From Pseudoflavonifractor sp. Marseille-P3106 (GTDB lineage Bacteria; Bacillota; Clostridia; Oscillospirales; Oscillospiraceae), in assembly GCA_900169975.1 (NCBI GenBank), contig LT827121.1, forward strand, positions 62,001-126,000: DNA of 64,000 nt. Reading direction: 5' to 3'. This document shows, in pieces, positions 11,193 to 24,789 of this stretch. Position numbers and translations under genes: made by a program. The stretch's first letter is position 1, and the number at the start of each line of letters is the position of its first letter. Under the pieces are notes generated by a model that was not told the origin of the DNA, searched no databases, and saw nothing but the letters and a program-made list of their open reading frames with translations.

Positions 11193-11270
11193 GCGGGAGG
11201 CGGGAGCCTCCCGCTTTTTTAGAAAACGGGGTTCAGAGCCAGGAGAAAAATTCTCCTGGCTCTCTTTTTA
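11193..11270 (+). terminator. Tandem terminators closing the walRK operon
   Basis: First hairpin: GCGGGAGGC (11193-11201) with GCCTCCCGC (11206-11214), then TTTTTT. Second: a perfect 13-bp stem, 11235-11247 with 11251-11263, then CTTTTTA. Together they insulate the phage-derived locus from the upstream operon. Confidence 0.92.
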
Positions 11271-11277: not shown

Positions 11278-11307
11278 TTTCCATTTAAAAAATTTTAGAT
11301 GTATAAA
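11278..11307 (+). promoter_or_regulatory. Candidate promoter of the phage-derived locus
   Basis: In the AT-rich stretch after the tandem terminators, TTTCCA (11278-11283) and TATAAA (11302-11307) are 18 bp apart, about 50 bp before the first phage gene. The -35 is weak. This is the only obvious promoter for the 13-kb plus-strand unit. Confidence 0.4.
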
Positions 11308-11357
11308 AATAGACAACTTTTTGGGTGAAAACGGGAGGGGTGTGAGGAGGGACGGCG

Positions 11358-11651
11358 ATGGAGAGCCGAAAGGCGGTTTTGAGACAAATCAGAAAATTGG
11401 CGGAGAGCCGGGTCAACGACGCGGTGCGGCTGGCCTTTTTGAGCGAGGAGGAGCTGGGGGAGCTGGCGAAGCTGGACCTGTCCGCCGTGGCGGAATTCAA
11501 GCGAAGCAGCAACGGAACGGTGGAGGTAAAGTTCATCGACCGGCTGGCGGCTTTGCAGTGGCTGATGGATCGGGCGGAGGAGGATCCCAAGGCACAGCGG
11601 CTCTATGAGGCGTTGGAGGGGGCAGCCGGACAGGTCGGGGAGGAGAAATAA
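11358..11651 (+). CDS. Short terminase small-subunit-like protein
   Basis: A 97-residue protein with GAGGAGG before the ATG. It sits exactly where PBSX-type phages encode the DNA-recognising small terminase and ends 1 bp before the large subunit. The C-terminal half (AEFKRSSNGTVEVKFIDRLAALQWLMDRAEE) resembles the C-terminal domain of small terminases, which contacts the large subunit. The N-terminal helix-turn-helix seen in full-length proteins (usually 150-260 aa) is missing. That would fit loss of site-specific packaging, an inference. Confidence 0.6.
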   Translation: MESRKAVLRQIRKLAESRVNDAVRLAFLSEEELGELAKLDLSAVAEFKRSSNGTVEVKFIDRLAALQWLMDRAEEDPKAQRLYEALEGAAGQVGEEK

Positions 11652-12905
11652 ATGCAGGTGGAAACCTTTTCCCCCAAGCAAAGGCTGGTGCTCTCCTGGT
11701 GGTGCGACGGCTCGCCCTGGCGGGAGCGGGAGGCCATCCTCTGCGACGGCGCCGTGCGGAGCGGGAAGACCTTCTGTTTGGGGCTGTCCTTTTTCTGCTG
11801 GGCCATGCGGCGGTTTGACGGGGCGGCCTTTGCCCTGTGCGGAAAGTCCATCGAATCGGCCCGGCGGAATCTGCTCAGCGGACTGCGGCCGGTGCTGCGG
11901 GAGCTGGGGTTTTCCGTGGAGGAGAAGGTGAGCCGGCACCTGCTGCGGGTGGCATTCAACGGGCATGAGAACACCTTTTACCTGTTTGGCGGAAAGGACG
12001 AGGGCAGCGCCGCCCTCATTCAGGGAATGACCCTGGCCGGAGTGCTGATGGACGAGGTGGTGCTGATGCCACGCTCCTTTGTGGAGCAGGCGGTGGCCCG
12101 GTGCTCCGTGGAGGGGGCCAAGGTGTGGTTCTCCTGCAACCCAGAGGGGCCGGAGCATTGGTTTTACAAAGAATGGATCTGCCGGGCGGGGGAGAGAAAC
12201 GCCCTGCGAGTGCCCTTCGCCATGGAGGATAATCCCAGTCTGAGCCCCCGGGTGCTGGAGCGGTACCGGAGGAGCTTTCAGGGGGCGTTCTACCGGCGGT
12301 TCGTACTGGGGGAGTGGGCGGTGGCCGAGGGGCGGGTCTACGACTTCTTTGACGAGAGTATGGTGTGTCCCGCCCCCGAGGGGGAGATGGAGGAGTGGCG
12401 GGTCTCTTGCGACTACGGGACGGCAAACCCCACGTCCATGGGGCTGTGGGGATTGCGGGACGGCGTGTGGTACCGGGTGGATGAGTTTTATTACGACGGG
12501 CGGAAAGAGGGGCGGCAGAAGACCGACCGGGAATATGTGGAGGCGCTGGAACGGCTGACGGCGGGGCGGGACGTTCGGCGGGTCATCGTAGATCCGTCGG
12601 CGGCCAGCTTTATCGCCGCCCTTCGGCAGGAGGGATGGCCCGCTGAGAGCGCCCGCAACGATGTGCTGGAGGGGATCCGGGTGACGGCCGACCTGCTGCG
12701 GCAGGGAAATCTGGTCATCTGCACCCCCTGCCGGGACGCCATTCGGGAGTTTTCCCTCTACTGCTGGGACCAGAGGGCTGTGGGGGACAGGGTGGTGAAG
12801 AAGTTCGACCACGCCATGGACGACATCCGGTATTTTGCCGCATCGGTGGGGCGCGGGGGCGGCTTTGTGGGGGGACTGGCAGTGGAACGGGAGCTATGGA
12901 GATGA
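11652..12905 (+). CDS. Phage terminase large subunit, PBSX family
   Basis: A 417-residue packaging motor with ATPase and nuclease domains. Walker A is GAVRSGKT (33-40), Walker B is VLMDEVVL (about 132), and the coupling Ser/Cys-Asn-Pro motif is FSCNPEGPEHW. The C-terminal RNase-H-like nuclease has VSCDYGTANPTS (first acidic residue) and VIVDPSAASF. Length is normal for the PBSX terminase family (about 410-430). All catalytic motifs are intact, so DNA packaging should still be possible. Confidence 0.93.
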   Translation: MQVETFSPKQRLVLSWWCDGSPWREREAILCDGAVRSGKTFCLGLSFFCWAMRRFDGAAFALCGKSIESARRNLLSGLRPVLRELGFSVEEKVSRHLLRVAFNGHENTFYLFGGKDEGSAALIQGMTLAGVLMDEVVLMPRSFVEQAVARCSVEGAKVWFSCNPEGPEHWFYKEWICRAGERNALRVPFAMEDNPSLSPRVLERYRRSFQGAFYRRFVLGEWAVAEGRVYDFFDESMVCPAPEGEMEEWRVSCDYGTANPTSMGLWGLRDGVWYRVDEFYYDGRKEGRQKTDREYVEALERLTAGRDVRRVIVDPSAASFIAALRQEGWPAESARNDVLEGIRVTADLLRQGNLVICTPCRDAIREFSLYCWDQRAVGDRVVKKFDHAMDDIRYFAASVGRGGGFVGGLAVERELWR

Positions 12906-12917
12906 GGGAGGAAAGAC

Positions 12918-14063
12918 ATGAAGTGGTTTGAGAAAAAGAAACCGCCCGCGGCGGTGGTGCAGACCCGGGAGGAGGAGAGCCACCCCTTCGGGGCGCTGAA
13001 CGGATACGTTCCCCTCAAAACTGGGGAGATCGCCCTCTATCGGACCATCCGGGAGGCGGTGCCTATTGTGGACGCCGCGGTGGGAAAGCTGGTGCGGCTG
13101 GCCGGCGGCGTGAAGGTGACGGCGGACGAGGGCCAGAGAGAGCTGGAGGAGTTTCTGCGGACGGTGAATACCGGGCGGGGACAGAGGGGCATCCAGTCTT
13201 TTCTGGACGCCTATGTGGACTCCATGCTGGTGTGCGGCCGGGGCGTGGGGGAGGTCGTGATGGACGGACGCAGGCGGGAGGTGGCCGCGCTGCTGTGCGC
13301 CGACCCGGCGGAGATCGAGATCAAAGAGGGAGAAACCCCCCTGGACTTTGCCCTCTGCGCCCGGAGGCGGGACGGGGCCGTGGAGGAAATGCCCCGGCAG
13401 GACCTCATTCTGTTTACCCCCTACCAGCCCGAAGCGGACAACCCCTATGGGGTGTCCCTGCTGCGGTCCATGCCGTTCCTCACCGGGATCCTTTTGAAAA
13501 TCTATCAGGCCACCGGCCTCAACTGGGAGCGGATGGGCAACGCACGGTTTGCCGTGGTGTATAAGCCCGGCGGCAGCGGCGACGGCGTGTGGGCCAGAGA
13601 GCGGGGCGAGGAGATCGCCCGGGAGTGGTCGGCGGCCATGCAGGCCGGCAAGAGCGGCAATGTGCGGGATTTCGTGGCGGTGGGAGACGTGGACATCAAG
13701 GTCATCGGCGCGGACAACCAGGTGCTGGACAGCCAGGTGCCGGTGCGGCAGATCCTGGAACAGCTGGTGGCCAAGACGGGGATCCCGCCCTTTTTGCTGG
13801 GGCTGTCCTGGAGCTCCACCGAGCGGATGAGCGCCCAGCAGGCCGACATGATGACCAGCGAGATCACCGCGCTGCGGCGGAGCGTTACGCCTGTGGTGGA
13901 GCGGATCTGCGAGATCTGGCTGCGGACCAGGGGGTATTCCTCCCGGGTGAATGTGGACTGGGAGGACATAAACTTGCAGGATCTGGTGGAGGAGGCCCGG
14001 GCCGGCCTCTACCGGGAGCAGGCGGAGAACCTGAGACTGGAACGGGAGCGGGGAACGGTTTGA
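12918..14063 (+). CDS. Phage portal protein
   Basis: A 381-residue portal, which would form the dodecameric ring at one capsid vertex for DNA entry and tail attachment. Supported by position directly after the large terminase, by length, and by portal-like segments: the N-terminal EIALYRTIREAVPIVDAAVGKLVRLAGG, LFTPYQPEADNPYGVSLLRSMPFLTGIL, and a C-terminal region (SWSSTERMSAQQADMMTSEI) resembling the tunnel-loop region. ATG 12918 follows GAGGAAAG. Confidence 0.88.
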   Translation: MKWFEKKKPPAAVVQTREEESHPFGALNGYVPLKTGEIALYRTIREAVPIVDAAVGKLVRLAGGVKVTADEGQRELEEFLRTVNTGRGQRGIQSFLDAYVDSMLVCGRGVGEVVMDGRRREVAALLCADPAEIEIKEGETPLDFALCARRRDGAVEEMPRQDLILFTPYQPEADNPYGVSLLRSMPFLTGILLKIYQATGLNWERMGNARFAVVYKPGGSGDGVWARERGEEIAREWSAAMQAGKSGNVRDFVAVGDVDIKVIGADNQVLDSQVPVRQILEQLVAKTGIPPFLLGLSWSSTERMSAQQADMMTSEITALRRSVTPVVERICEIWLRTRGYSSRVNVDWEDINLQDLVEEARAGLYREQAENLRLERERGTV

Positions 14064-14106
14064 GCGGCCCGCCTGGAGAACAGACGGGCGGAAAGGAGAG
14101 AGGGAT

Positions 14107-15027
14107 TTGAAGATCATCAAAGAGGCGAATACCGGGGGCGGCTGCCCGGTGCAGGAGGAGGATCTGGCGCTCATCAACGCGCTGGCCCGGAAGGAGTTGG
14201 CCGCCGAGGAGGTATACACCTTCACCGTGCGGCTGTGCGACAACGAGATCGACCGGGAGTGGGAGCGCTTCCCCGAGGAGACGCTGGAGGGGCTGGCACC
14301 CATGTTCGTGGGCAAGAGCGGCATCTTTGACCACAACTGGTCGGCGCTGGGACAGGCCGCACGTATCTATAAGACCGAGGTGGTCCGGGAGGAGGGGCCG
14401 CTCACACGGGCAGGAGATCCCGGCTGCTACTTGAAGGGCTGGGCCTATATGGTGCGCACCGAGGGAAACCGGGATCTCATCGCGGAGATCGAGGGGGGCA
14501 TCAAGCGGGAGGTCAGCGTGGGCTGCTCGGTGGAGAAGGCGGTGTGCTCGGTGTGCGGGCTGCCGCTGGAGGAGTGCCACCATGTGAAGGGGCGCACCTA
14601 CAACGGAACCCTCTGCTGGGGGGAGCTGGTGGGGGCGAAGGACGCCTATGAGTGGTCCTTTGTGGCGGTGCCCGCCCAGCCCCGGGCCGGGGTGATCAAG
14701 GGGATGACGCCGGTATTGAAGGCATTGGCGGAGGAAAAGCCGGAGGCTCGGAGAGAGCTGGAGGCCCTGGAGAAGGCCGCCGCGCTGGGGCGGCGGTATC
14801 TGGAGGAACTGCGGGGCGAGGTGGTGCGGCTGATGGCCATGAGCCGGACGGGGCTGGAGGCCGATGTGATCCGCTCCATGACCGGAAAGCTGGACGAGGA
14901 GGAGCTGACCGCATTGAAAACCGTGTTCCAGCGGCAGGTGGAGGAGACCTGGCCCCGGGGCGCGCAGCTGAGCTACCGGGGCGGCAGTCGGGAACAGACA
15001 GCGGGAGACCGGGCGTTTTTGGTGTGA
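14107..15027 (+). CDS. Putative prohead maturation protease (XkdF position)
   Basis: A 306-residue protein starting at a TTG (14107) behind a very strong GGAAAGGAG. It lies between portal and capsid, the place of XkdF-type prohead proteases. Possible catalytic residues are His in IFDHNWSALGQAARIY and Ser in IKREVSVGCSVEK, the spacing of herpesvirus-like assembly proteases. A cysteine cluster (CSVCGLPLEECHH) follows the Ser. The C-terminal third (about 200-290) is helical and charged and may serve as scaffold. The role is inferred from position and motif shape. Confidence 0.65.
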   Translation: MKIIKEANTGGGCPVQEEDLALINALARKELAAEEVYTFTVRLCDNEIDREWERFPEETLEGLAPMFVGKSGIFDHNWSALGQAARIYKTEVVREEGPLTRAGDPGCYLKGWAYMVRTEGNRDLIAEIEGGIKREVSVGCSVEKAVCSVCGLPLEECHHVKGRTYNGTLCWGELVGAKDAYEWSFVAVPAQPRAGVIKGMTPVLKALAEEKPEARRELEALEKAAALGRRYLEELRGEVVRLMAMSRTGLEADVIRSMTGKLDEEELTALKTVFQRQVEETWPRGAQLSYRGGSREQTAGDRAFLV

Positions 15028-15099
15028 GGCCGCCGCCACTTTGAGGGCGGTCGACTGAATATTTGAGATGGAATGAAACAGAAAAGGGAGGAAATGGGT

Positions 15100-15453
15100 A
15101 TGAGCAGCAAGGTTTCGTTTGAGGGGATCGGAGAGGTCATCGCTACCTTCTACGCCGGGGACGGCGTGACGGCGGGACAGGTGGTGAAGCTGTCGGGGGA
15201 CAGCAAGGTGGCGGCCTGCACCGCAGGGGAACGTTTCTGCGGCCTGTCCGTGTCGGTCAAAACCGGGTGCGCCGCCGTACAGGTGGGGGGGTTTGCCGAG
15301 GTCCCCTGCACCGACAGCACTGTGGCGGTGGGACTCGCAACCCTGACGGCCGACGGCAGCGGCGGCGTGAAAAAGGCGGGGAGCGGCGACGCAGGGGAGG
15401 AATACCTGGTGGTGTCCAAGGATACCGCCGGATTCATCACCCTGAAAATGTAA
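15100..15453 (+). CDS. Putative capsid decoration protein
   Basis: A 117-residue, beta-rich, Gly/Val/Thr-rich protein directly upstream of the capsid gene, the usual place of head-decoration proteins. I use the ATG at 15100 (MSSKVSFEGIG) because GGGAGG is 8 nt upstream; ATGs at 15073 and 15094 are poorly spaced. The fold looks like a small beta-barrel (GVTAGQVVKLSGDSKVA, GFAEVPC). No catalytic motif. Assignment is from position and composition. Confidence 0.55.
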   Translation: MSSKVSFEGIGEVIATFYAGDGVTAGQVVKLSGDSKVAACTAGERFCGLSVSVKTGCAAVQVGGFAEVPCTDSTVAVGLATLTADGSGGVKKAGSGDAGEEYLVVSKDTAGFITLKM

Positions 15454-15468
15454 GGAGGAGAGAGACAG

Positions 15469-16500
15469 ATGGCTTATCATTTTGACGATCTGAAACTGGA
15501 CAAGGGCATGTATTCTGTGTCGGGAAAGAGCTTTACCGCCGTACTGGAGGAGGAGGACCCCACCGAGCGCTACCGTGGTACTTCCCTGGAGGAAATGGAC
15601 GCCTATCAGCGTCAGCTCAAGCGGTTCGACATCAAGGTCAAGGGTGCGGGCAGCGATGTGGTGGAGAAGTTTTTCCAGACATCTCAGTCCGCGGTGCTGT
15701 TTCCCGAATTCGTGGCCCGAAGCGTGAGACAGGGGATGGAGGAGGCCGACCTGCTGCCCTCCATCACTGCCGCCGAGACCCGGTTCGAAGGGCTGGACTA
15801 CCGCTCCATCGCCTCGGTGCCCGAAAAGAGCAAGAAGGAGCTGCGCCGGGTGGAGGAGGGGAGCGTCATTCCCCAGACCCAGGTCAAGACCCAGGAAAAT
15901 CTGGTGCGGCTCCACAAGAGGGGCCGGATGCTGGTGGCCTCCTATGAGGCCATCCGCTATCAGAAGCTGGATCTCTTCTCCGTGACCCTGCGGCAGATCG
16001 GCGCCTACATCAGCCGCACCCTGCTGGAGGACGCCATCGACGTGCTGGAAAACGGCGACGGCAACAGCAATGCGGCAACCAAGCTGAAGGTGGGCACATC
16101 CCCCATTGGAGGCATTGCCGGGACACTGAAGTACGATGATCTGGTGGACTTCTGGGCCCAGTTCGATCCCTATGAAATGAACACCCTGCTGGTCTCCGGT
16201 GACGTGATGCTCCAGATGCTGAAGATGGACGAGTTCCGCGATCCCATGACCGGGCTCAACTTCCAGGGTACCGGCAAGCTGACCACCCCTCTGGGGGCCA
16301 ATCTGCTGCGGACCTCCGCGCTGGGCACCGGGAAGCTCATCGGTCTGGACCGGCGTTATGCGCTGGAAATGGTGAAGGGCTCCGACGTGATGGTGGAGTA
16401 CGACAAGCTCATCGACCGGCAGCTGGAGCGGGCGGCCATCACTACCATTGCCGGATTTGCCAAGGTGTTTCAGGACGCGGCCAAGGTGCTGACGGTGTGA
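15469..16500 (+). CDS. Major capsid protein, HK97 fold
   Basis: A 343-residue protein preceded by AAGGAGGAG. An N-terminal helical arm (1-65) precedes the core. The region after it (VEKFFQTSQSAVLFPEFVARSVRQGMEEADLLPSI) and the C-terminal strand (ITTIAGFAKVFQDAAKVLTV) are typical of HK97-like major capsid proteins from Clostridia prophages. The segment VPEKSKKELRRVEEGSVIPQTQVKTQE corresponds to the E-loop and spine start. It is followed by a strong stem-loop at 16550. Confidence 0.88.
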   Translation: MAYHFDDLKLDKGMYSVSGKSFTAVLEEEDPTERYRGTSLEEMDAYQRQLKRFDIKVKGAGSDVVEKFFQTSQSAVLFPEFVARSVRQGMEEADLLPSITAAETRFEGLDYRSIASVPEKSKKELRRVEEGSVIPQTQVKTQENLVRLHKRGRMLVASYEAIRYQKLDLFSVTLRQIGAYISRTLLEDAIDVLENGDGNSNAATKLKVGTSPIGGIAGTLKYDDLVDFWAQFDPYEMNTLLVSGDVMLQMLKMDEFRDPMTGLNFQGTGKLTTPLGANLLRTSALGTGKLIGLDRRYALEMVKGSDVMVEYDKLIDRQLERAAITTIAGFAKVFQDAAKVLTV

Positions 16501-16549
16501 GAGCTATGTACGGCTGAGGCGGATTGACCGGAGAGCCGGTACGCCGGAC

Positions 16550-16576
16550 GGCTCCCTCCCGGTGGAGGAGGGAGCC
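16550..16576 (+). other. Stem-loop after the capsid gene
   Basis: A perfect 10-bp stem, GGCTCCCTCC (16550-16559) with GGAGGGAGCC (16567-16576), loop of 7. No T-tract follows, so it is more likely an mRNA-stabilising or processing element that raises capsid mRNA over the downstream genes than a terminator. Confidence 0.6.
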
Positions 16577-16593
16577 TGAGAGGAGGGACGGAA

Positions 16594-16941
16594 TTGATCG
16601 AGAAAATCATGGCGATGGCGGTGCTGCTGGGGAAGGTCCGGGAGAGCGAGGGCCTGCGGGCCCTGTGCCAGGCCGCCGAGGACGAGTTGACCGGCTGGCT
16701 GAGAGACGGTGTGACGGCGGAGGACTGCGGGCAGTGTTTTGTGCTGGCCGGGGCCTGGCTGGCGCTGGCTGGTCGGGAGGTGGCGGAGGACGACGGCGTG
16801 GAGTCCTTCACCGCAGGAGATGTGACCCTTCGGCAGGGGGACCGGAAGGCTCGCGGCCAGGCGCTGCGGATGCAGGCCAGACAGGTGATGCGGCCCTACC
16901 TGCGGGACGAGGGATTTTCTTTTCTGGGAGTGCGGGGCTGA
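16594..16941 (+). CDS. Putative head-tail connector protein
   Basis: A 115-residue protein with TTG start behind GGAGGG. It is mostly helical in the first half (IEKIMAMAVLLGKVRESEGLRALCQAAEDEL) and ends with a short conserved tail (RDEGFSFLGVRG). Position after the capsid gene and size match head-tail connectors (gp6-like/XkdH slot). Its stop overlaps the next ATG (TGATG). Confidence 0.6.
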   Translation: MIEKIMAMAVLLGKVRESEGLRALCQAAEDELTGWLRDGVTAEDCGQCFVLAGAWLALAGREVAEDDGVESFTAGDVTLRQGDRKARGQALRMQARQVMRPYLRDEGFSFLGVRG

Positions 16942-17267
16942 TGGACGGATCGACGTGGGAAAGGCTGCTGGAGCGGTTTGGACAGAAGGTCACGCTGTAT
17001 CAGGCGGGGCTGGGAAGCGACGTGAAGGCCTTTTTTCAGCCGGTCGGCGAGCGGTCGGCCGGGGAGGAGGCGACGGCGCTGGGCGTGGCCCCGGAGGGAA
17101 AGTACCTCTACCTGGGCCCCGCTGAGATCGACCCGGAGGGGGTGGAGGAGCTGTCGTGGAACGGCCGGTTTTACCACTTTATCCGGGTGAGGGCGGTGCC
17201 GGCGGGGGAGAAGATCGCCTACCGGTGGGCGCTGGCCGAGGAGTTGGATGAGAGGAGCGGGGCATGA
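16941..17267 (+). CDS. Putative head-closure/minor structural protein
   Basis: A 108-residue protein. The frame extends upstream to 16524, but the upstream part is antisense-like padding over the previous gene; the ATG at 16941 overlaps the previous stop by 1 bp. A beta-rich region (QKVTLYQAGLGSDVKAFFQPVGE...GKYLYLGPAEID) resembles SPP1 gp16-like and XkdH-like head-closure proteins. It ends WALAEELDERSGA and overlaps the next gene by 4 bp (ATGA). Confidence 0.6.
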   Translation: MDGSTWERLLERFGQKVTLYQAGLGSDVKAFFQPVGERSAGEEATALGVAPEGKYLYLGPAEIDPEGVEELSWNGRFYHFIRVRAVPAGEKIAYRWALAEELDERSGA

Positions 17268-17755
17268 CGGGAACCGAGGAGCTGCGCCGGAATTTGGCGG
17301 AATATCTAAAGAAAAATGGGCTGGAGGCTGTGGCGGCCTGGGGGGGACAGGCGCGGCTCCGGGCCGGGGAGCCGGTGGCGGCCGTGTCTTTGAGGGCCTA
17401 TGAGGGCGGCACGCCGGGGTTTCAGGACTATCTGGGGGAGCGCTACGACGAGGAGACTGGGCGGTGGGTGGAGCTCTACGGAAAACGGGTAAAGCTCACC
17501 TTTGGCCTGGATCTGTACGCGGGGACGGCCCAGGAGGTCCAGATGGGTCTGGATCTCCTGGTGGATGCCTTGGGAAAGGGCGGGCCGGCTGGGTTGCGGC
17601 CGGTGGCTTTTTCCGCGGGGGAGACCGCGTACCGCGCGGAGGCCAAACGGTTTTGCTGCCCGGTGCAGGTGGGGTTTGAGGCGTGGTCCTATGCCCGGAC
17701 CGATGAGGACGGCGCGTTTGTGGACTTTACAGTGAGAGGAGAGACCAAGGTGTGA
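17264..17755 (+). CDS. Putative tail-terminator/neck protein
   Basis: A 163-residue protein in the XkdJ/tail-completion slot immediately before the sheath gene. It has an alternating beta pattern (KLTFGLDLYAG, RPVAFSAGETAYRAEAKRFCCPVQVGFEAWSYA) suited to a ring-forming terminator. Start ATG overlaps the previous stop; its own stop overlaps the sheath GTG by 3 bp. Function is inferred from position only. Confidence 0.5.
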   Translation: MTGTEELRRNLAEYLKKNGLEAVAAWGGQARLRAGEPVAAVSLRAYEGGTPGFQDYLGERYDEETGRWVELYGKRVKLTFGLDLYAGTAQEVQMGLDLLVDALGKGGPAGLRPVAFSAGETAYRAEAKRFCCPVQVGFEAWSYARTDEDGAFVDFTVRGETKV

Positions 17756-18774
17756 ATGTGACGGAACATCAGAGACCGGGGGTGTACTCGGTCTACGACG
17801 CGTCCAGCGTGGTGAGCGGGCAGAGCGGCAGCAGGGCGGCAGGCCTGGCCGCCTTGTGCACAAAAGGCACGGCGGGACGGGTGTACAGCCTGTTCAGCCG
17901 GGAACAGGCGGCGGAGACCTTCGGGGGAGACGAGGAGATCACCGAGCTGGTTGGGATCCTGCTGAAAAACGGGGCGGCCAGTGTCTGGGCTGTCCCTGTG
18001 GCGGCGGAGAGCGGCTATGCGGCCGCATTCGCGGCCTTGGAGAAGGTGGAGAATCTGGCCGCCGTGGTGTGCGACAGCGCCACGCTGGCAGTGCAGCAGG
18101 CGCTGCGGGACAGCGTGAAGAGCGCGTCCGAGGCCCGCAGGGAGCGGCTGGCAGTGGTGTGCGGCGGAGAGAACGAGGCCGCTTCCGCGCTGGTGAGCCG
18201 GGCGGAGGGTCTGAACTGCGAGCGGGTGGTGCTGACGGCCCCCGGCGGAGCGAGGGCCGCCGCCGCGGTGGCCGGGGCCATCGCGGGGGAGAGCGACCCT
18301 GCCGTCCCACTGGGCGGCGCGGAGCTGAAGGGGATCCCGGCGGCGGAACAGGAGTGGTCGGACGGCGAGATCGACACCCTGGTGTTGGGCGGAGTGACGC
18401 CTCTGGAGAGCAGCGGCGGCGTGGTGAGTGTGGTGCGGGGGGTGACGACCCGGACCAAGACCGGCTCGGCCGCAGATGCCACATGGCGGGAACTGACCAC
18501 CATCCGGGTGGTGGACGATGTGATCCCCGGGCTGAGAGATGCGCTGCGGGCGCGGTTCAGCCGGGCCAAGAACACCGAGCAGGGCCGGGGAGCCATTCGC
18601 AGCCAGGTCATTGTGGAGCTGGAGCAGAAAAAGAGAGGGGAGATCATCGCGGACTACGACAATGTGGCGGTGTCCGCGGTGGAGAATAACCCCACCGTGT
18701 GTCTGGTGGAGTTTGATTTCACCGTGGCTCACGGGCTCAACCAGATCTGGCTGTCCGCCCATGTGACGGTATAA
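17752..18774 (+). CDS. Contractile tail sheath protein (short form)
   Basis: A 340-residue protein with a GTG start overlapping the previous stop. Sheath hallmarks: the N-terminal RPGVYSVYDASS strand, the central domain with EQAAETFGGDEEITELVGILLKNGAASVWAVPV, and the C-terminal interlocking core (TTIRVVDDVIPGLRDALRARFSRAKNTEQGRGAIRSQVIVELEQ). PBSX XkdK is near 466 residues, so this version probably lacks the outer insertion domain and is close to the minimal sheath. Its presence makes the tail contractile. Confidence 0.85.
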   Translation: MNVTEHQRPGVYSVYDASSVVSGQSGSRAAGLAALCTKGTAGRVYSLFSREQAAETFGGDEEITELVGILLKNGAASVWAVPVAAESGYAAAFAALEKVENLAAVVCDSATLAVQQALRDSVKSASEARRERLAVVCGGENEAASALVSRAEGLNCERVVLTAPGGARAAAAVAGAIAGESDPAVPLGGAELKGIPAAEQEWSDGEIDTLVLGGVTPLESSGGVVSVVRGVTTRTKTGSAADATWRELTTIRVVDDVIPGLRDALRARFSRAKNTEQGRGAIRSQVIVELEQKKRGEIIADYDNVAVSAVENNPTVCLVEFDFTVAHGLNQIWLSAHVTV

Positions 18775-18786
18775 GGAGGAAACAAA

Positions 18787-19179
18787 ATGACGGTATCACA
18801 ATTTCCCACCAGCGCCGACATCTATCTGGAGCTCAACGGAAAGAAGCTGGCGGTGGTGCAGAGCTATACCGCCCAGACTGTACGGAGCAGCACCACGGTG
18901 GAGGCTTTTGGAGAGAGCGAACCGGTGGCCACTATCCCGGGGCAGCGCAGGCATACGGTGATCCTCTCCCGGCTCTACGCCACCGACGAGGCGGTGAAGG
19001 ATGGGGTCAATTTCCACGACCTGGAGGATTTTAACCTGGTGATCTGCAAGCCGGATCGGCGAGTCATCTATTCCGGGTGTCAGTGGAAGGACCTGGAGGA
19101 AACGGGCAGGCTGGGCGAGATGGTGCTGGAGAAAGTCACCATCGTCGCCGCACGGCGGGTGGAGACCACGCTGAAATGA
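18787..19179 (+). CDS. Tail tube protein (XkdM-like)
   Basis: A 130-residue protein directly after the sheath, preceded by AAGGAGG. It opens with TVSQFPTSADIYLELNGKKLAVVQSYTAQT and has the TVILSRLYATDEAVKDGVNFHDLEDFNLVICKPDRR beta-barrel core of XkdM-type tubes. The tube forms the rigid inner channel driven through target membranes on contraction. Its stop overlaps the next ATG. Confidence 0.82.
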   Translation: MTVSQFPTSADIYLELNGKKLAVVQSYTAQTVRSSTTVEAFGESEPVATIPGQRRHTVILSRLYATDEAVKDGVNFHDLEDFNLVICKPDRRVIYSGCQWKDLEETGRLGEMVLEKVTIVAARRVETTLK

Positions 19180-19598
19180 GAGACAATTTTTGGAACAGGC
19201 CCGGGGGGACGGAGCTGGGAGGCGGCTGGAGGGCTCGGCTGCTGTCGGCCTGGGAGGCCATGGAGGCCAGAGCGGAGGCGGAGACGCTGGCGGCGGAGGG
19301 GCGGGATCCGGCTCTGTGCGCCAACGCATGCCTGCTGGCCCGGGCCCTGCTGCGCCGGGGGAGGCCCGCCTTTGCCGGCGGGAAAGAAGTGCTGGAGGGG
19401 ATGACCGCGGGGCAGATCGGAGAATTGGCCCGCAGGTGGTCCGCCTTTGACCGGGAGAGCAACCCCTCGGTTTTGAGCGGGGAGGAGACGGTGGAACAGG
19501 CAAAAAAAGCCTGGAGCACGCGCCGGAAGAGCGCCTTCGGTGGCGCGTGCTCAAAGCATTTCACGCTCTGCCTACCGAGGCGCGGGTCCGGAAGATGA
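19176..19598 (+). CDS. Tail assembly chaperone, short (G) product
   Basis: A 140-residue product translated in the unshifted frame from ATG 19176, overlapping the tube stop. The helical body (LLSAWEAMEARAEAETLAAEG..., ARALLRRGRPAF, LEGMTAGQIGELARRWSAFDRESNPSVL) is the XkdN/gpG-type chaperone that coats the tape measure before the tube polymerises. After the slippery run at 19502 the zero-frame tail (about 30 residues, rich in Arg, Cys and Gly) looks random, consistent with coding selection acting on the shifted frame there. Confidence 0.8.
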   Translation: MRDNFWNRPGGTELGGGWRARLLSAWEAMEARAEAETLAAEGRDPALCANACLLARALLRRGRPAFAGGKEVLEGMTAGQIGELARRWSAFDRESNPSVLSGEETVEQAKKAWSTRRKSAFGGACSKHFTLCLPRRGSGR

Positions 19599-19795
19599 CC
19601 CACCGGGACTACCTGTGGTGCGCGGTCAACCTGCTGCTGGACGGGGAAGAGCTGCTGGACCGGCTGTGCCCGGCCTGCCGGGCGGAGGCGGAGGAGAAGC
19701 GGTGCCCGGTGTGTGGGGCGAGAGCGGCGGACTGCGGGGAGAACAGGGAATTTGATTTGGAACGGTTTCAGCAGTTGCGGGGTGATGGGATTTGA
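19176..19795 (+). CDS. Tail assembly chaperone, frameshifted (G-T) product
   Basis: A -1 shift on seven A residues at 19502-19508 continues translation to the stop at 19793-19795, giving about 206 residues. The shifted extension (about 95 aa) reads as a proper domain: LEHAPEERLRWRVLKAFHALPTEARVRKMTHRDYLWCAVNLLLDGEELLDRL, then a zinc-ribbon-like CPAC-x8-CPVC and an acidic end. This mirrors the conserved G/G-T arrangement of tailed phages, where the T part links to the tape measure. A clear tape measure is not found here. Confidence 0.82.
19502..19552 (+). promoter_or_regulatory. Programmed -1 ribosomal frameshift signal
   Basis: Slippery run of seven A (19502-19508) in the frame GCA-AAA-AAA-GCC. 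After a 5-nt spacer comes a perfect 11-bp stem: GAGCACGCGCC (19514-19524) pairs with GGCGCGTGCTC (19542-19552). The loop itself can form a small GAAG/CTTC hairpin. Heptamer, spacing and stem are all textbook. Confidence 0.88.
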
Positions 19796-20337
19796 TCGAT
19801 TATCTGGCTCTGGCGCTGGCTCAGGAGGACGAGGAAGAGAGAGAGACGGAGAAAGGGCGGCTGTGTGAGGAAATCAAGAGAGCCGTAATTCCAGCCGGGA
19901 AGTTCCTCTCCGGGACGGTACGGCTGACAGGGCGGGCCGGGAACGTTTCGGAAAAGGGACCCGCGGAGGAGTCTGATGAGAGCCGGCTTCCCCTCGCTTC
20001 CGAAGACAAGGCGGAGAAAAAACCGGCGAAAGCGGCGGTCCGGGAGAGCGATTCCGCAGCGGCGGACGTGGTTCGGCAGCTTGCGGAAAAGGAGGCATAT
20101 GCCGTGCCGGGAGAGCGGCGGTCCCGGGGGGCGGCGGGAGAGAGCGCCGCGGCCGCGCTGCTCAGCGGGCTGAGACGGGCGGAGGCCGGGGCGGGGCTGA
20201 CCCATGGACAGGGACGCCCCATTTCTGTTGTCCTGCCCGGGGCGGAAGAGAGCTCCCCCGGCTGGGGGCCGGAGAAGCTGGATCGGGCGGTGGAACGGGA
20301 TGCCCGGCGGTATGACGGCGGCTTTTCGCTGTACTGA
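19792..20337 (+). CDS. Unknown 181-residue protein in the tape-measure slot
   Basis: The TTG start (19792) overlaps the G-T stop by 3 bp. The protein is hydrophilic and low-complexity: an acidic start (LALAQEDEEERETEKGRL), an Ala/Glu/Ser/Lys-rich middle that is probably disordered, then GAAGESAAAALLSGLRRAEAGAG and a Tyr-ending tail (RYDGGFSLY). There is no membrane segment and no long coiled coil. In all related phages this interval holds a tape measure of several hundred to more than 1000 residues. It may be a drastically shortened tape measure or a different spacer. I recognise no family. Confidence 0.7.
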   Translation: MIDYLALALAQEDEEERETEKGRLCEEIKRAVIPAGKFLSGTVRLTGRAGNVSEKGPAEESDESRLPLASEDKAEKKPAKAAVRESDSAAADVVRQLAEKEAYAVPGERRSRGAAGESAAAALLSGLRRAEAGAGLTHGQGRPISVVLPGAEESSPGWGPEKLDRAVERDARRYDGGFSLY

Positions 20338-20348
20338 GGAGGGATACC

Positions 20349-20930
20349 ATGGCGCTTGCGCCCATGCAATACAAGAATTATGTGTGGCCCCACAACCCGA
20401 GGGTCTACTCCATTGAATACCAGCGGGCCATGGGGGTGCACAAGGTGCCCTTCGGCCGCTATCATTTGCAGGATCTGGGCCCCACCCGGCGGATCATGAA
20501 AGGCGAGGGAGAGTTCGTGGGCGAGGGGGCCTACCGGGAGTTTCAGAAGCTGGCGTCGGTCTTTTACAGCGACGGGCCGGGGGTGTTGGTCCACCCCGTC
20601 TGGCAGGCTGCCAGGGCCTATTTCGTGGAGCTGTCTCTGGAGCAGGAGCCGAGGGAGAACTATGTGCGATATACCTTTACCTTTTGGGAGACCTATGAGG
20701 GCTATGGGGCCTGTGCCAGGACGGCTGGGACCGGAAGCGCCGGACAGAGCGCCGCCGCGGCCGCGGGCCCTGCCGGGGACGCAAAGACGTGGCACACGGT
20801 GGTCCGGGGAGAGAGCCTGTGGCGGATCGCCCGGGATTATGACCTGGCACTGGCGGAGCTGATCGCCCTCAACCCCCAGATCAAGAATCCCAATCTCATC
20901 CGCACAGGAGAGAAGGTGCGCGTCCGGTGA
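20349..20930 (+). CDS. XkdP-like baseplate/tail protein with LysM domain
   Basis: A 193-residue protein with GGAGGG before the ATG. The N-terminal part (YKNYVWPHNPRVYSIEYQRAMGVHKVPFGRYHLQDLGPTRRIMKGEGEFVG) resembles the DNA-circulation/XkdP N-terminal domain. An Ala/Gly-rich linker leads to a LysM domain (about 146-193, WHTVVRGESLWRIARDYDLALAELIALNPQIKNPNLIRTGEKVRV), which binds peptidoglycan. Gp53-like LysM proteins connect tube and baseplate in contractile systems. Confidence 0.82.
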   Translation: MALAPMQYKNYVWPHNPRVYSIEYQRAMGVHKVPFGRYHLQDLGPTRRIMKGEGEFVGEGAYREFQKLASVFYSDGPGVLVHPVWQAARAYFVELSLEQEPRENYVRYTFTFWETYEGYGACARTAGTGSAGQSAAAAAGPAGDAKTWHTVVRGESLWRIARDYDLALAELIALNPQIKNPNLIRTGEKVRVR

Positions 20931-21862
20931 TGGAGGGATATCTGCTTCGGTGCGACGGAGCGCGGATCGACCTTCCGCCCTTTACCGGATGGAGGCTGCT
21001 GCGGACCGGCGCGGTGCCCTGTGACAGCTTTGAGGGGACCTGCCCCTGGGATGCCGGATTGGAGCCGGAGCTGGAAAAGGCCAGCCGGCTCATCGTGGAG
21101 GAAAACGGGGCCAGACGGTTTACCGGCGTTTTGGATGAGTATGAGCTGACCTGGGATGAGAGGGGCGGGGGCCTCTCCCTCTCCGGGCGGGGACTGGCGG
21201 CTTTGCTGCTGGACAACGAGGCCCGGGGACAGGACTATCAGGTGGCCACACTGGCCGATATTTTGAAAGATCACGTGACGCCATACGGGGTGCCGGTGGG
21301 ACGGGTGGGGAGCCTGCCGCCGGTGCCTGGATTTTCTGTGGAGACCGGGAGCAGCGAGTGGCAGGTGCTGTACAGCTTTGCAAGGTATCACGGAGGGGTC
21401 CAGCCCCGCTTCGACGCCTGGGGCAGCCTGACGGTGGACGCCGCCGCCGCAGGGAAAATCGTGGCGGTGGACGACCGGACGGGAGTGACGGCCGTAAGCC
21501 GGCGGGACAGGCGGTACGGGATCTGTTCCGAGCTGCTGATTCAGGACCGGACGAGCCGGTCGGTCCAGAGAATGGTCAACGAGGCGTTCCTGGAACAGGG
21601 AGGCTGCTGCCGGAGAGTGGTGACCCTGCCCGGAAAGAGCGCCTATCAGGCGGCCAGGTATTCCGGACGGTTCCAGCTGGACCGGTCTTTGGAGGAGCGG
21701 TTCCGGGTGGAGCTGACGGTGCCGGGGAGCTATTTTTGCGAGCCGGGAGACCGGGTGTCCGTCTCCCTGAGCCGGCCCGCTCTCACGGGAAACTGGACGG
21801 TGCTGGAGACGGAGAGCGTGCTGGACGGGAACGGGACCCGGGTCAAACTGACGCTGGGGTAA
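20930..21862 (+). CDS. Baseplate hub protein (XkdQ/gpD-like)
   Basis: About 310 residues. The ATG at 20930 overlaps the previous stop; a GTG one codon earlier is equally possible. Late-control gpD/XkdQ features are the EYELTWDERGGGLSLSGRGLAALLLDNEA stretch, VATLADILKDHVTPYGV, and a C-terminal barrel (VPGSYFCEPGDRVSVSLSRPALTGNWTVLETESVLDGNGTRVKLTLG). It forms the trimeric hub that holds the spike at the tube end. Confidence 0.78.
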   Translation: MEGYLLRCDGARIDLPPFTGWRLLRTGAVPCDSFEGTCPWDAGLEPELEKASRLIVEENGARRFTGVLDEYELTWDERGGGLSLSGRGLAALLLDNEARGQDYQVATLADILKDHVTPYGVPVGRVGSLPPVPGFSVETGSSEWQVLYSFARYHGGVQPRFDAWGSLTVDAAAAGKIVAVDDRTGVTAVSRRDRRYGICSELLIQDRTSRSVQRMVNEAFLEQGGCCRRVVTLPGKSAYQAARYSGRFQLDRSLEERFRVELTVPGSYFCEPGDRVSVSLSRPALTGNWTVLETESVLDGNGTRVKLTLG

Positions 21863-21919
21863 GAGGGCCTGTTCCGCTTGTGCGGGAGAAAAAGGCCCGG
21901 ACAAGGAGGGAAAAACAGA

Positions 21920-22306
21920 ATGTTTCTATCGAGACAAGGACGGCCGGAAGCACCGGGGGGATTGGCCCTGAGCGGGCCGGTGACGGTGCCGGGAGATCCG
22001 GCGGGCGCCTGGCTGGAGGGGGAGCGCCGGGCGGCGGCGGTATACGCCCCCGGCGGGTACCACTGGCTGCCTGCGGAGGGGCAGGAGGTGCTGGTGCTCA
22101 AGGCGGGGGCCTGCGGGGAAAAACGCTGCGCCGTAGGCGTGCCCCAAGATGCGGAAGAACTGGAATTACAGCCGGGCGAGGTGGCGGTTGCGGCGGGCAA
22201 GGCCGTGCTCCGGTTAAAGCCTGACGGGACGGTGGAGATCACCGGGAGGCTTCGAGTCAACGGGGCGGCGGTGGGCCCGGAACTCGCTGCCGGGGAGGGC
22301 GTGTGA
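21920..22306 (+). CDS. Baseplate spike/assembly protein, gpV-like
   Basis: A 128-residue protein. I use ATG 21920 with AGGAGGG upstream; the frame is open from 21878. An OB-fold-like N-terminal part (AGAWLEGERRAAAVYAPGGYHWLPAEGQEVLVL) is followed by a short repetitive beta-helix spike segment (GEVAVAAGKAVLRLKPDGTVEITGRLRVNGAAV), the layout of Mu gp45/P2 gpV central spikes. At this length the spike is very short. Stop overlaps the next gene. Confidence 0.72.
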   Translation: MFLSRQGRPEAPGGLALSGPVTVPGDPAGAWLEGERRAAAVYAPGGYHWLPAEGQEVLVLKAGACGEKRCAVGVPQDAEELELQPGEVAVAAGKAVLRLKPDGTVEITGRLRVNGAAVGPELAAGEGV

Positions 22307-22659
22307 TGGCGCTGATCTTACGGGAAGGGGACTACGTGCCCGACGGCAAGGGGGGCTTCCGAACGGCAGAGGGGGGGCAGGAGCTGCTGGAGCGGATCCT
22401 GTGGAAGCTCTCGGTCCGCCGGGGGAGCTTCCCCTTTCTGCCGGAACTGGGCAGCAGACTTTATTTGCTGGGGCGGGCCGCGCCGGGACAGCGGGCGGCC
22501 CTGGCCCGTCAGTATGTGGCGGAGGCGCTGAGCGATGAGATGGTGGAGCTGCGTGAGGTGACGATGGAAGAGGCAGGCGGGGCGATCCAGCTCACCGCAC
22601 GGATGGAGTGGCAGGGCGAGGAGCTGGCGGCCACAGTGCGTTTGGAGGAGAGCCTATGA
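22306..22659 (+). CDS. Baseplate wedge protein, GPW/gp25-like
   Basis: A 117-residue protein starting at ATG 22306 (a GTG one codon earlier is possible), overlapping the previous stop. It shows the gp25 lysozyme-like fold signature: EGGQELLERILWKLSVRRGSFPFLPELGSRLYLL. The GS/Y motif and ensuing helix match the sheath-initiator family that nucleates sheath assembly on the baseplate. Confidence 0.78.
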   Translation: MALILREGDYVPDGKGGFRTAEGGQELLERILWKLSVRRGSFPFLPELGSRLYLLGRAAPGQRAALARQYVAEALSDEMVELREVTMEEAGGAIQLTARMEWQGEELAATVRLEESL

Positions 22660-23711
22660 AAACGGTTGAAGAGATCTATGACGAGATGCTGGCGGTATTT
22701 CGCCGGGAGACGGGGGCGGAGGCGTCGGCGGCCAGCGATCTGTCGGTCAAGCTCTATGCGGTGGCGGCAGAAGTGTATGCCCTTTACGTGCAGGCGGACT
22801 GGCTGGCCAGACAAGTCTTTCCCCAGACGGCGGAGGGGATTTATCTGGAGCGGCACGCCGCCCTGCGGGGCCTGGAGCGCCGGGAGGCGGTGCGGGCGGA
22901 GGGCGTGATCCGCTTTTGTGTGGACGCCGCCTCCGCTGCTGACCTGTCCGTTCCGGCGGGGACGGTTTGCGCCACCGCCGGTATGGTGCGGTTTGAGACG
23001 CTGGAAGATGTGGTGCTGCCGGCGGGAGAGACTTCGGTGGAGGCTGCGGCCCGGGCAGTGGAGGCCGGGGCGGCGGGCAATGTGCCGGAGGGGAGCATCC
23101 AGGCAATGGCGGTAGCTCCCGTGGGGATCAGCCGGTGCGTGAACCCAAGAGCCTTTACAGGGGGCGCGGATGCCGAGGAGGACGGGACGCTGCGGGAGCG
23201 GGTGCTGGAGACCTACCGGAGAATGCCCAACGGGGCCAACGCAGCCTTTTATGAGCAGGAGGCCCTGTCCTTTGACCAGGTGGCAGCGGTCACGGTGCTG
23301 CCCCGAAACCGGGGAAAGGGCACGGTGGATGTGGTGGTGGCCACTCAGGCGGGGCTGCCGGGGGCTGAGCTGCTCAGTCAGCTGACCGATTATTTCGAAG
23401 CACGGCGGGAGATCGCCGTGGATGTGGAGGTGAAGGCCCCCACAGTCAAGACGGTGGATGTGACGGTGGAGGTCACCCCAAAAGAGGGGGCGGACAGCGC
23501 GCAGGTGAAGACCGGAGTGGAGGCCGCGCTGAGGGATTTCTTCTCCGGGAAACGGCTCAGCCGGAACGTATTGGTGGCGGAGCTCTATCAGCTTGTCTTT
23601 TCTCAGGCCGGTGTGGCCAACTGCTCTGTCTCCGCACCCGCCGCTGACGTGGCGGTGGCCAGAGGGGAACTGCCCCGGCTGGGGACGCTGACGGTGGGGG
23701 TGAGCGCGTGA
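22656..23711 (+). CDS. Baseplate J-like protein (XkdT-like)
   Basis: A 351-residue protein starting at ATG 22656, overlapping the previous stop by 4 bp. Gp6/J signatures: N-terminal YDEMLAVFRRETGAEASAASDLSVKLYAVAAEVYALYVQADWLARQVFPQTAEGIYLERHAALRGLERREA, then FTGGADAEEDGTLRERVLETYRRMPNGANAAFYEQEAL. This is the wedge protein that forms the iris of the baseplate. Length is normal (about 350). Confidence 0.88.
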   Translation: MKTVEEIYDEMLAVFRRETGAEASAASDLSVKLYAVAAEVYALYVQADWLARQVFPQTAEGIYLERHAALRGLERREAVRAEGVIRFCVDAASAADLSVPAGTVCATAGMVRFETLEDVVLPAGETSVEAAARAVEAGAAGNVPEGSIQAMAVAPVGISRCVNPRAFTGGADAEEDGTLRERVLETYRRMPNGANAAFYEQEALSFDQVAAVTVLPRNRGKGTVDVVVATQAGLPGAELLSQLTDYFEARREIAVDVEVKAPTVKTVDVTVEVTPKEGADSAQVKTGVEAALRDFFSGKRLSRNVLVAELYQLVFSQAGVANCSVSAPAADVAVARGELPRLGTLTVGVSA

Positions 23712-24274
23712 GCTGTGCAGAGCATTTATGGGCGCTGCTCCGGCCTCTGGGCCCATATCAGAAGAGTGGGATTTACACCGCGGGGGAGCTGGCCGGAGAG
23801 GGAGAGGCGTTGGACGGGGTGGAGGAGACTCTTGCCACGCTGGAACGGGAGGGTTTTCTCGACACGGCGGAGAGCTGGGGACTGGAGAGGCTGGAAAGCC
23901 TGCTGGTCCGGCGGCCTGTGGCGGACACCCCGGAGGAGCGAAGAAAGGCCCTGGCGGCGCTGCTGAGGATCGGCGGAGACAGCTTTACGCTGGCGGCTGT
24001 CAACGACAACCTGAAGGGCTGCGGGCTCAACGCCGTGGCTGGAGAGACGGCGGACACCGGCGTGGTGGAGGTGCGGTTTCCGGACGTGCCTGGAATCCCG
24101 GACGGGTTTGAGACGCTGAGGAAGATCATAGAAGACATTTTGCCCTGTCACCTTCAGGTGGACTATGTGTATTGGTACATCACCTGGGCCATGGTGGAGG
24201 AGAAGTTTTCCACCTGGGGAGAGATCGAGGCAGGGGGCTATACCTGGGAGCAGCTGGAAAAGCTGGTGCGATAG
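23708..24274 (+). CDS. XkdU/YmfQ-like baseplate protein (DUF2313)
   Basis: A 188-residue protein with GTG start overlapping the J-like stop by 4 bp. It matches the DUF2313/YmfQ pattern (LLRPLGPY..., EGEALDGVEETL, RRKALAALLRIGGDSFTLAAVNDNLKGCGL), a family that attaches fibres to the baseplate. It is the last gene of the locus: no fibre or fibre-assembly gene follows, and a minus-strand gene begins 15 bp downstream. Confidence 0.8.
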   Translation: MSCAEHLWALLRPLGPYQKSGIYTAGELAGEGEALDGVEETLATLEREGFLDTAESWGLERLESLLVRRPVADTPEERRKALAALLRIGGDSFTLAAVNDNLKGCGLNAVAGETADTGVVEVRFPDVPGIPDGFETLRKIIEDILPCHLQVDYVYWYITWAMVEEKFSTWGEIEAGGYTWEQLEKLVR

Positions 24275-24288: not shown

Positions 24289-24789
24289 TCAAAAACGGGA
24301 TGGGGCGCTGAAATAGCCCTCTGCCTCGGCCTGTGTGACGGGGGCGCAGGGAGCGAGGCGGTTTTCCAGCCAGGCCATGCGGCCGGTGGAGCAGGCCCAG
24401 TAAAGGCTGTCGTCCGCCCAGGGGGAAATATCCTGAAAGTCATTGCAGATTCCGGCGTCCGGGAAAAAAGTGTCCCGGCCCAGCCGGGCGTCGTTGCGGC
24501 GGAGCAGGGCGGCGCACTCCTCCCGGGTGAGGAGGCGGTCCGGGGCAAAAAGGCCTTCCCCCACGCCTCGGATGACGCCCTCATCCCAGGCCCAGCACAC
24601 CGCCTGGGCATAGGGGGTATTTCGCCCCACGTCGGAAAAAGGACAGGTGCTGACATCGTAGGGAACGCCTCCCGCCGACTGCCAGAGGAGAACGGCAAAG
24701 TCACCCCGGGTGACGGGCTCGGAGGCCGCACCCAGGGCAGGGGTCGTCAGAAGGAGCAGGGAAAGAGCCAGACAGGTCAAAGAGCGCAT
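24289..24789 (-). CDS. Small exported protein with SLH repeats
   Basis: A 166-residue protein with a signal peptide (MRSLTCLALSLLLLTTPALGAAS, cleavage near 21). Two S-layer-homology-like repeats follow: VTRGDFAVLLWQSAGG...FSDVGRNTPYAQAVCWAWDEGVIRGVGEGLFAPDRLLTREECAALL, and a weaker one, FQDISPWADDSLYWACSTGRMAWLENRLAPCAPVTQAEA. SLH repeats bind pyruvylated secondary wall polymers. There is no other domain. Its ribosome binding site lies inside a terminator-like hairpin. Confidence 0.82.
   Translation of the reverse strand: MRSLTCLALSLLLLTTPALGAASEPVTRGDFAVLLWQSAGGVPYDVSTCPFSDVGRNTPYAQAVCWAWDEGVIRGVGEGLFAPDRLLTREECAALLRRNDARLGRDTFFPDAGICNDFQDISPWADDSLYWACSTGRMAWLENRLAPCAPVTQAEAEGYFSAPSRF

Follow-up and report, generated by a model that had tools for sequence, protein, structure and literature searches.

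Twenty genes for a predicted phage head, DNA-packaging machinery and contractile tail lie at 11358-24274 on the plus strand of the window, which is the whole stretch of DNA analysed here (64,000 nucleotides of Pseudoflavonifractor sp. Marseille-P3106, Oscillospiraceae, order Oscillospirales; contig LT827121.1 of assembly GCA_900169975.1, positions 62,001 to 126,000). All twenty reading frames are open and most of them overlap or abut, on a single strand, much as an earlier note on this DNA had described, except that it had counted nineteen. Annotation of the twenty genes bears out the boundaries given there as well as the gene order, which runs from terminase to XkdU in what we take to be the order of PBSX. 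A matching set of genes in matching order recurs across a family, which excludes a chance arrangement.

The guanine-plus-cytosine (GC) content is host-like, as previously described: 0.62-0.68 in 2-kb windows of the cluster vs. about 0.60-0.67 on either side. Pfam and PHROG assign none of the twenty genes to a family of integrases, repressors, replication proteins, holins, fibres, or tape measures, so that these modules are indeed missing from the cluster, including the integrase, repressor, and replication genes that are the hallmarks of a functional prophage. The claim of terminators on both sides holds only upstream, where terminator-like hairpins are found at 11191-11216 and 11235-11263; no hairpin lies directly 3' of the last gene, the nearest one downstream (24794-24826) being located beyond a convergent gene with an SLH domain. 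Since the scan returned 16 terminator-like sites vs. 9.4 in shuffles, these hairpins are weak evidence. The genes next to the cluster are yycI, named by the earlier note, and the SLH gene. The features are as follows, with E-values after the family names.

11298..11321 (+): inverted repeat GATGTAT-N6-AGACAAC-TTTT, operator-like and 36 bp ahead of the TerS start; degenerate relative to GTTGCAY-N6-RTGCAAC (score 14.4, 5/7 arm pairs)
11358..11651 (+): TerS-like small terminase of 97 amino acids (aa), without the N-terminal half; positions 64-128 of 141 of Pfam Terminase_2 (8.2e-4, under the curated cut-off), location ahead of TerL, structure model
11652..12905 (+): TerL, with ATPase and nuclease motifs intact; Terminase_6N 1.3e-13, phrog_2 1.2e-46
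12918..14063 (+): portal; phrog_30703 2.9e-159
14107..15027 (+): conserved head-region protein of unknown function; phrog_16951 8.7e-120
15091..15453 (+): head decoration or scaffold-like protein; phrog_4588 4.2e-20, phrog_673 2.3e-6
15469..16500 (+): major capsid protein; Phage_capsid_4 1e-15, phrog_3922 3.6e-113
16594..16941 (+): head-tail connector; phrog_541 0.0033, position
16941..17267 (+): connector/stopper-like, from its position; no significant Pfam or PHROG match, 26 family sequences gathered
17264..17755 (+): tail terminator-like, from its position; phrog_25177 1.3e-32 (unknown function)
17752..18774 (+): tail sheath; Phage_sheath_1C 4.1e-14, phrog_279 2e-42
18787..19179 (+): tail tube (XkdM position); phrog_27038 6.1e-61 (unknown function), phrog_985 1.2e-5 (virion structural)
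19176..19598 (+): tail chaperone-like (XkdN position), from position only; 18 family sequences gathered
19595..19795 (+): zinc-ribbon-like protein of 66 aa; CxxC pairs, weak zinc-ribbon matches under the cut-off
19792..20337 (+): 181-aa protein in the tape-measure slot, no recognisable tape measure; no significant match, slot length in relatives
20349..20930 (+): XkdP-like LysM protein; LysM 5.6e-11, DNA_circ_N 1.7e-5, phrog_380 (endolysin) 9.1e-16, phrog_184 (baseplate hub) 8.3e-13
20927..21862 (+): baseplate hub, XkdQ-like; phrog_177 1.8e-34
21926..22306 (+), start may be 21878: spike-like, from its position; phrog_25991 5.9e-24 (unknown function)
22303..22659 (+): baseplate gp46-like; GP46 5.9e-4 (under the cut-off), phrog_975 2.4e-6
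22656..23711 (+): Baseplate J; Baseplate_J 1.6e-54
23708..24274 (+): XkdU/Mu gp48-like; Phage_Mu_Gp48 8.5e-9 (just under the cut-off), phrog_521 1.2e-25
24289..24789 (-): convergent SLH-domain gene, ending 14 bp from the cluster end; SLH 7.7e-12, association only

The LysM gene is taken here as XkdP-like, by its position and its DNA_circ_N match, although its best PHROG (phrog_380) is labelled endolysin. Relatives of the convergent SLH gene occur in the fetched stretch of 7/40 family loci.

Packaging genes and the tape-measure slot

The motifs of the large terminase are intact. In TerL, the Walker A lysine and the Walker B DE are present in 57/57 genomes, and one acidic residue of each nuclease motif is kept in 56 of the 57. 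TerS in the window has no N-terminal helix-turn-helix and starts with the oligomerisation part, as do small terminases of the gene transfer agent (GTA) type; its structure model consists of helices and one beta hairpin, with no additional N-terminal domain (predicted local distance difference test, pLDDT, 77). In four relatives from the family, Terminase_2 is likewise matched only within positions 57-132. Six TerS proteins of other families were compared: the match is essentially full in four, begins at position 19 in the fifth, and covers only 64-124 in the sixth. The small terminase of the window's family is shown by its sequence to lack the predicted DNA-binding half.

No recognisable tape measure is encoded, as the earlier note had pointed out. 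The 181-aa gene in the slot has no significant match and is poorly conserved among relatives, and no gene of tape-measure size appears in the slot in the 42 rows measured, in which two genomes are counted twice. The slot is 325-1547 bp long in 40 of these rows. In the other two, the loci L067 and L069, it is 2-17 bp, and there even the tube is weakly matched (22-26% identity).

Distribution and inheritance with the chromosome

The portal is found in 92/250 genomes of the family, as a single match in 90 and in two pieces in 2; it is present in 68 of the 161 near-complete genomes and in 50 of the 106 genera. At the level of the order, the capsid is found in 71/394 genomes belonging to six family codes, with one match in 69 and two in 2. 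In the 40 family loci that were fetched, the genes found are collinear, except that L060 has the capsid and decoration genes ahead of the portal, and the sheath is found in 36. Each of the twenty genes was then turned into a profile from family f1 sequences; applied to 38 loci of the order, three of which end early at contig ends, the profiles detected the sheath in 6 and J in 23. Several lineages have only TerS to the connectors, some with a hub-like gene. Genome-wide, J was not found in the 14 genomes tested, 13 of them without J at the cluster and the last one a congener. So the capsid and packaging genes appear to be the constant part of the cluster across the order.

The surroundings are less constant. 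Where the earlier note proposed looking for the cluster at the same locus in relatives, yycI turned out to be upstream in 0/40 fetched family loci, and only downstream genes are common to some same-genus loci: two of four have the SLH, dehydrogenase, and carboxylase genes in common, and a third has the SLH gene alone. Flanking genes vary between genera, and a comparison of the flanks with each other revealed no flanking gene family common to most family loci. Eight f23 loci have within 5 kb downstream a common gene with a GTP-bdg_N domain, presumably HflX-like. Extra genes also occur just 3' of gp48. One such gene, found in L044 with homologues in L045, L047, L051, and L053, is possibly a local receptor-binding part; the L044 copy, which was the one tested, carries a carbohydrate-binding module of the CBM_5_12 family. 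In L093 and 14 other loci, all of other families, it is a conserved gene of ~178 aa, of which the piece tested has no Pfam match. Among virus collections, IMG/VR holds eight contigs (4-17 kb) with the window-type portal. The portal and the capsid each occur in six phage records, namely five shared unannotated faecal contigs and one distant match each.

Divergence of the head genes was compared with that of a host marker, RpoB (picked by phmmer), in a Mantel test with 5000 permutations. Of 60 genomes, 57 were used; G071 and G014 (partial RpoB) and G425 (TerL missing from the fetched stretch) were left out. The correlation is 0.827, with 0/5000 permutations as good, and it persists within families (f1 0.889, f23 0.839, f26 0.857; 0, 0, and 2 of 5000 permutations as good). 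Nearest neighbours in head genes and in RpoB agree in 32 of the 57 genomes. All twenty genes correlate with RpoB (r 0.41-0.91), the weakest being the tape-slot gene (0.41). FastTree trees of the head genes and of RpoB have 36/54 splits in common, 26 of them at support 0.9 or more, vs. a maximum of 3 with random labels, and f1 and f26 are monophyletic in both. Judged from the agreement of the Mantel test and of the tree splits, inheritance of the cluster is ancient and vertical. In the closest pair (family f23), the ratio of nonsynonymous to synonymous substitution (dN/dS, not set against host genes) ranges from 0.04 to 0.28 for 14 genes. Most values from more distant pairs exceed this, one gene reaching 0.68, and dS is saturated in some of these pairs.

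Operator-like repeats, fibre-like genes and S-layer partners

In the family, the inverted repeat GTTGCAY-N6-RTGCAAC is located ~35 bp before TerS, with a motif log-likelihood of 287 vs. 70-89 in five shuffled sets. The operator score is over 9 in 32/42 family upstream regions and over 10 in 6/33 loci of other families, for which wider windows were used. By comparison, a Gram-positive LexA box and several sigma boxes were found upstream of TerS in 0-1 of 42, which is the shuffled level. An exact search for TTGCAY-N6-RTGCAA in 18 genomes found it in 17 and, according to our own reading of the places, away from the cluster in 14; the reversed control pattern occurs at one place in the window genome (G000) and at none in the other 17. 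Behind these repeats stand fibre-like proteins in G071 and G119, a pair of Amidase_3 and Phage_holin_4_1 genes in G169, and an Abi_2 protein. In the window genome, a DUF4417 protein is encoded directly behind an operator-like repeat (L221:5845-7221; contig C19, about 298 kb), and homologues stand behind repeats in L239 and, as the C-terminal part only, in L275. In G477 (L241, L245), the same inverted repeat precedes two genes of prophage type, one for a primase and one for replication initiation; the host regulator of the repeat may thus be used by prophages as well.

A profile made from three operator-linked fibre-like proteins (E 0.05 or better) finds relatives in 26/30 family genomes, often several in each. 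For the three proteins themselves Pfam gives no match, and PHROG at most a weak one, to a family of unknown function. From 20 regions in 13 genomes, hand-picked among the profile hits for long contigs, 27 fibre-like reading frames were obtained (L325 gave none). An operator score of 7 or more is found upstream of 11 of the 27 vs. 2.9% of 898 background windows; one of these 11 genes was found through the operator itself, and an earlier count at the same threshold, from the fibre-search loci rather than the larger regions used here, was 9/27, the two sets overlapping. Within a genome, the TerS and fibre operators resemble one another, a level reached by 48/5040 permutations, or by 62 when means replace maxima. 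This test left out genomes without a detected TerS site or with a fibre score under 7; with 6 genomes it gave 2/720, and it weakened to 48/5040 on adding G128.

The fibre-like genes have a characteristic neighbour. Twenty-one of the 27 are convergent, tail to tail, with a gene of 800 aa or more, vs. 16/221 other reading frames, and the gap is 62-97 bp in 19/21 of these pairs. SLH domains are present in 5/5 partners scanned whole, including the partner of the window genome's fibre-like gene on contig C14; a sixth SLH partner was seen in part, and two further SLH genes lie near fibres without being direct partners. Among pairs taken within one genome (n=22), the N-termini are similar (mean distance 0.19 for fibres and 0.34 for S-layer proteins), whereas fibre tips (0.88) and S-layer C-termini (0.94) are dissimilar. 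For 21 cassettes, fibre-tip distance tracks the C-terminal distance of the S-layer partner (51/2000 within-genome permutations), whereas the controls, the S-layer N-terminus (1517/2000) and the fibre N-terminus (983/2000), do not; this is modest evidence that tip and C-terminus vary together.

Compared with a viral library, the structure model of the fibre has 15 matches at E 0.001 or less, the second of which is a Myoviridae tail fibre (4.7e-5, template modelling (TM) score 0.45); the viral fold matches, including tail fibres, have TM below 0.52. A fold search of the PDB gave nothing under E 0.011, a P1 baseplate protein being the best, weak match, and in a sequence search of the PDB the best E was 0.12 for the fibre and 0.53 for TerS.

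The G128 genome carries an array of six fibre-like genes (L307-L308; C1, 563-589 kb). They are spaced at about 4 kb, apart from the last of the five intervals, which measures about 9.6 kb. Each gene has an operator-like site (score 6.3-8.3) at 51-52 bp, and 5/6 are paired with a gene of 954-1051 aa, SLH-positive in one scanned whole and in one scanned in part.

Relationship with known particles and possible function

Six features of gene transfer agents are set out in PMC9662315. Among those that can be read from a sequence, the particle proteins of the cluster derive from tailed phages; the cluster is chromosomal and fully endogenised, a build from several loci being suggestive for the window genome and linked by the shared operator in relatives only; and it is inherited vertically, co-diversifying with its hosts. 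The other three features concern the particle at work: it mostly encloses random host DNA, its head cannot hold its own genome, and it delivers its DNA to other cells. On the first of these the window bears indirectly at most, through its TerS without DNA-binding half and through the packaging published for the family. The cluster is therefore called gene-transfer-agent-like rather than a proven member. Vertical co-diversification is described for alphaproteobacterial GTAs (PMC9662315), and PMC6854486 describes a RcGTA TerS without the N-terminal DNA-binding domain. RcGTA and the alphaproteobacterial GTAs (viriforms) thus resemble the window system in their head-tail cluster, their co-diversification, and their small terminase, whereas the window system differs in having a contractile sheath, no tape-measure-sized gene, Gram-positive hosts, and paired fibre-S-layer genes. 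In GTAs of the RcGTA type, fibre and lysis genes are located away from the main cluster. The earlier note had counted missing modules elsewhere in the genome against domestication. Such modules do stand elsewhere behind the same operator, namely genes for fibre-like proteins and, in a single relative, for lysis, but this dispersal resembles the build of known GTAs and supports a GTA-like nature rather than refuting it.

A further case was described in 2026. According to PMC12946183, GTA-like packaging of Oscillospiraceae DNA occurs in faecal particles, with a gene cluster reported only for Faecalibacterium. This FpGTA has a small cluster with a TerS without obvious DNA-binding domain, TerL, portal, and capsid; its baseplate, fibre, and lysis genes are at a second locus, and its particles of about 40 nm contain about 9 kb of host DNA. 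It is described there as most likely podovirus-like, with no identifiable tail. Like the window cluster, FpGTA is small and combines these four kinds of head and packaging genes; in the tail it differs, the window having contractile tail genes. Without a positive control, the capsid profile matched 0/10 genomes in three genera that had been tentatively picked as candidates for Faecalibacterium with a 16S probe, which matched 3/297 genomes. A Faecalibacterium phage fragment matched 0/250 f23 genomes and 2/148 f26 genomes, one of them strongly (78% identity).

Taken together, the cluster probably encodes a gene-transfer-agent-like particle that was domesticated early on, when the order was young, and has since been passed down as part of the chromosome. 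A domesticated particle rather than a decaying prophage, as the earlier note had proposed, agrees with the single copy in nearly all positive genomes, the host-congruent phylogeny, the collinearity, and the low dN/dS of the closest pair. Of the two kinds of particle that it had left side by side, a gene transfer agent is favoured over a bacteriocin, because terminase motifs, portal, and capsid are kept while some lineages lack the sheath or any tail genes that can be recognised.

The main competing view, which we regard as unlikely though worth serious attention, is a PBSX-like killer, i.e., a domesticated contractile particle with a head, which would take up host DNA without delivering it and puncture rivals, the fibre-S-layer pairs setting its target range. 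PBSX of Bacillus subtilis is a headed contractile particle that packages host DNA, and the gene order of the window presumably matches that of PBSX-type tail modules. The contractile sheath in the window's family and the diverse fibres beside surface-layer genes would also suit a killer. PBSX brings lysis and control genes of its own and encodes a tape measure (XkdO), located after the chaperone and before XkdP, whereas the window has an unrelated 181-aa protein in the slot, which measures 2-1547 bp in the 42 rows. R-type diffocins and SlpA-binding Clostridioides phages combine a contractile tail with an S-layer protein as receptor; diffocins have no head, and we know of no paired fibre-receptor gene cassettes in either. 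Clostridial phages with an S-layer receptor are known (PMC10100898, PMC9615553). Yet head and packaging genes, which a killing device would not need, persist where the sheath or a recognisable baseplate is missing, and the S-layer genes that the fibre-like genes adjoin are those of the cell itself, an indication that the target is self or kin.

Much less probable is a satellite-like capsid supplier, packaging a specific mobile element or helping other prophages rather than taking up random host DNA. The operator before prophage replication genes in one relative could couple expression to prophage induction, but the family's small terminase lacks the half with which a specific element would be chosen, and the flank comparison found no conserved element beside the cluster. 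Finally, despite a clear phage origin and the eight IMG/VR contigs with the portal, an ordinary prophage remnant, or a phage lineage co-diverging with its hosts and re-infecting them, has next to nothing to recommend it in view of the lack of integration, control, or replication genes (0/20), the absence, in the flank comparison, of a gene family common to most family loci, the single copy in nearly all positive genomes, the congruence with RpoB, the low dN/dS of the closest pair, and the few phage records, five of the six for each gene being the shared unannotated faecal contigs and one a distant match.

Several observations weigh against a gene-transfer-agent-like particle, or against parts of that reading. 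The particle, its packaged DNA, and any transfer are predicted from gene sequences. The cluster is dispensable, since 158/250 family genomes, and 93/161 near-complete ones, have no portal match, and members of the family carry it at different places in the chromosome. In the tree of the head genes, 3 of the 35 supported splits contradict RpoB, and the f23 genomes do not form a single clade. The per-gene dN/dS to which the earlier note had looked is low only in the closest pair; within the window's family it is 0.12-0.68 (three pairs with unsaturated dS, not set against host genes). Tail genes called missing elsewhere in the order may have diverged beyond the profiles or been replaced. The regulator is not dedicated to the particle, as for many of the repeats no plausible target is apparent and others stand ahead of replication genes of prophages. 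The window genome has a degenerate operator before TerS, and its two C14 fibre-like genes score only 5.5-5.6, so that the operator-fibre link depends on relatives; for the genus of the window, an operator ahead of fibre-like genes is not supported. A lysis cassette was not located in the window genome, and 1 of the 18 genomes scanned for exact repeats has one. The name tail fibre, for which we prefer fibre-like, relies on an N-terminal pattern that we take to be that of a tail fibre, on variable tips, and on predicted fold matches, and the fibre-S-layer pairs were surveyed in genomes carrying the cluster.

If the particle is gene-transfer-agent-like, a cellular regulator acting at the repeat would let a few cells express the head-tail operon together with fibres and lysis genes sited elsewhere. 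With no means of selecting a pac site of a phage, the terminase would package chromosomal DNA by the headful into a small head, and a very short contractile tail, built without a tape measure, would be fitted with a fibre. The cell would then lyse, the fibre would bind cells with a matching S-layer protein, that is, kin, and the DNA would be injected. A fuller picture, which we put forward only tentatively, is that of a contractile gene transfer agent that lacks a tape measure and is passed on vertically throughout the order. Modular fibre-S-layer cassettes, several per genome, would set its host range, each fibre gene being placed tail to tail with the S-layer gene of its presumed receptor, and fibres, lysis genes, and particle would be under one operator. 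If so, carrying adhesin and receptor genes together would make DNA exchange kin-selective. The system would be the most widespread Gram-positive gene transfer agent lineage known to us, with a series of apparent stepwise tail losses, and it would provide a genetic link between a DNA-delivery particle and a surface receptor, through which kin-selective gene exchange becomes testable. Oscillospiraceae and their relatives are common gut bacteria, and the cluster is a concrete candidate, which can be deleted and tested, for the GTA-like packaging published in Oscillospiraceae. No earlier description of such a cluster was found in a literature search whose coverage excluded most subscription papers and preprints.

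Two minor observations concern other parts of the same genome. A separate prophage-like region with its own tail and lysis genes is located on contig C19 (about 346-386 kb; L201-L203); it contains a Phage_Mu_F match, a DUF3383 protein, a second J, an Amidase_2 protein, and an 833-aa gene of tape-measure size without Pfam match. Within the window, GC content reaches its maximum, up to 0.72, at 44000-46000.

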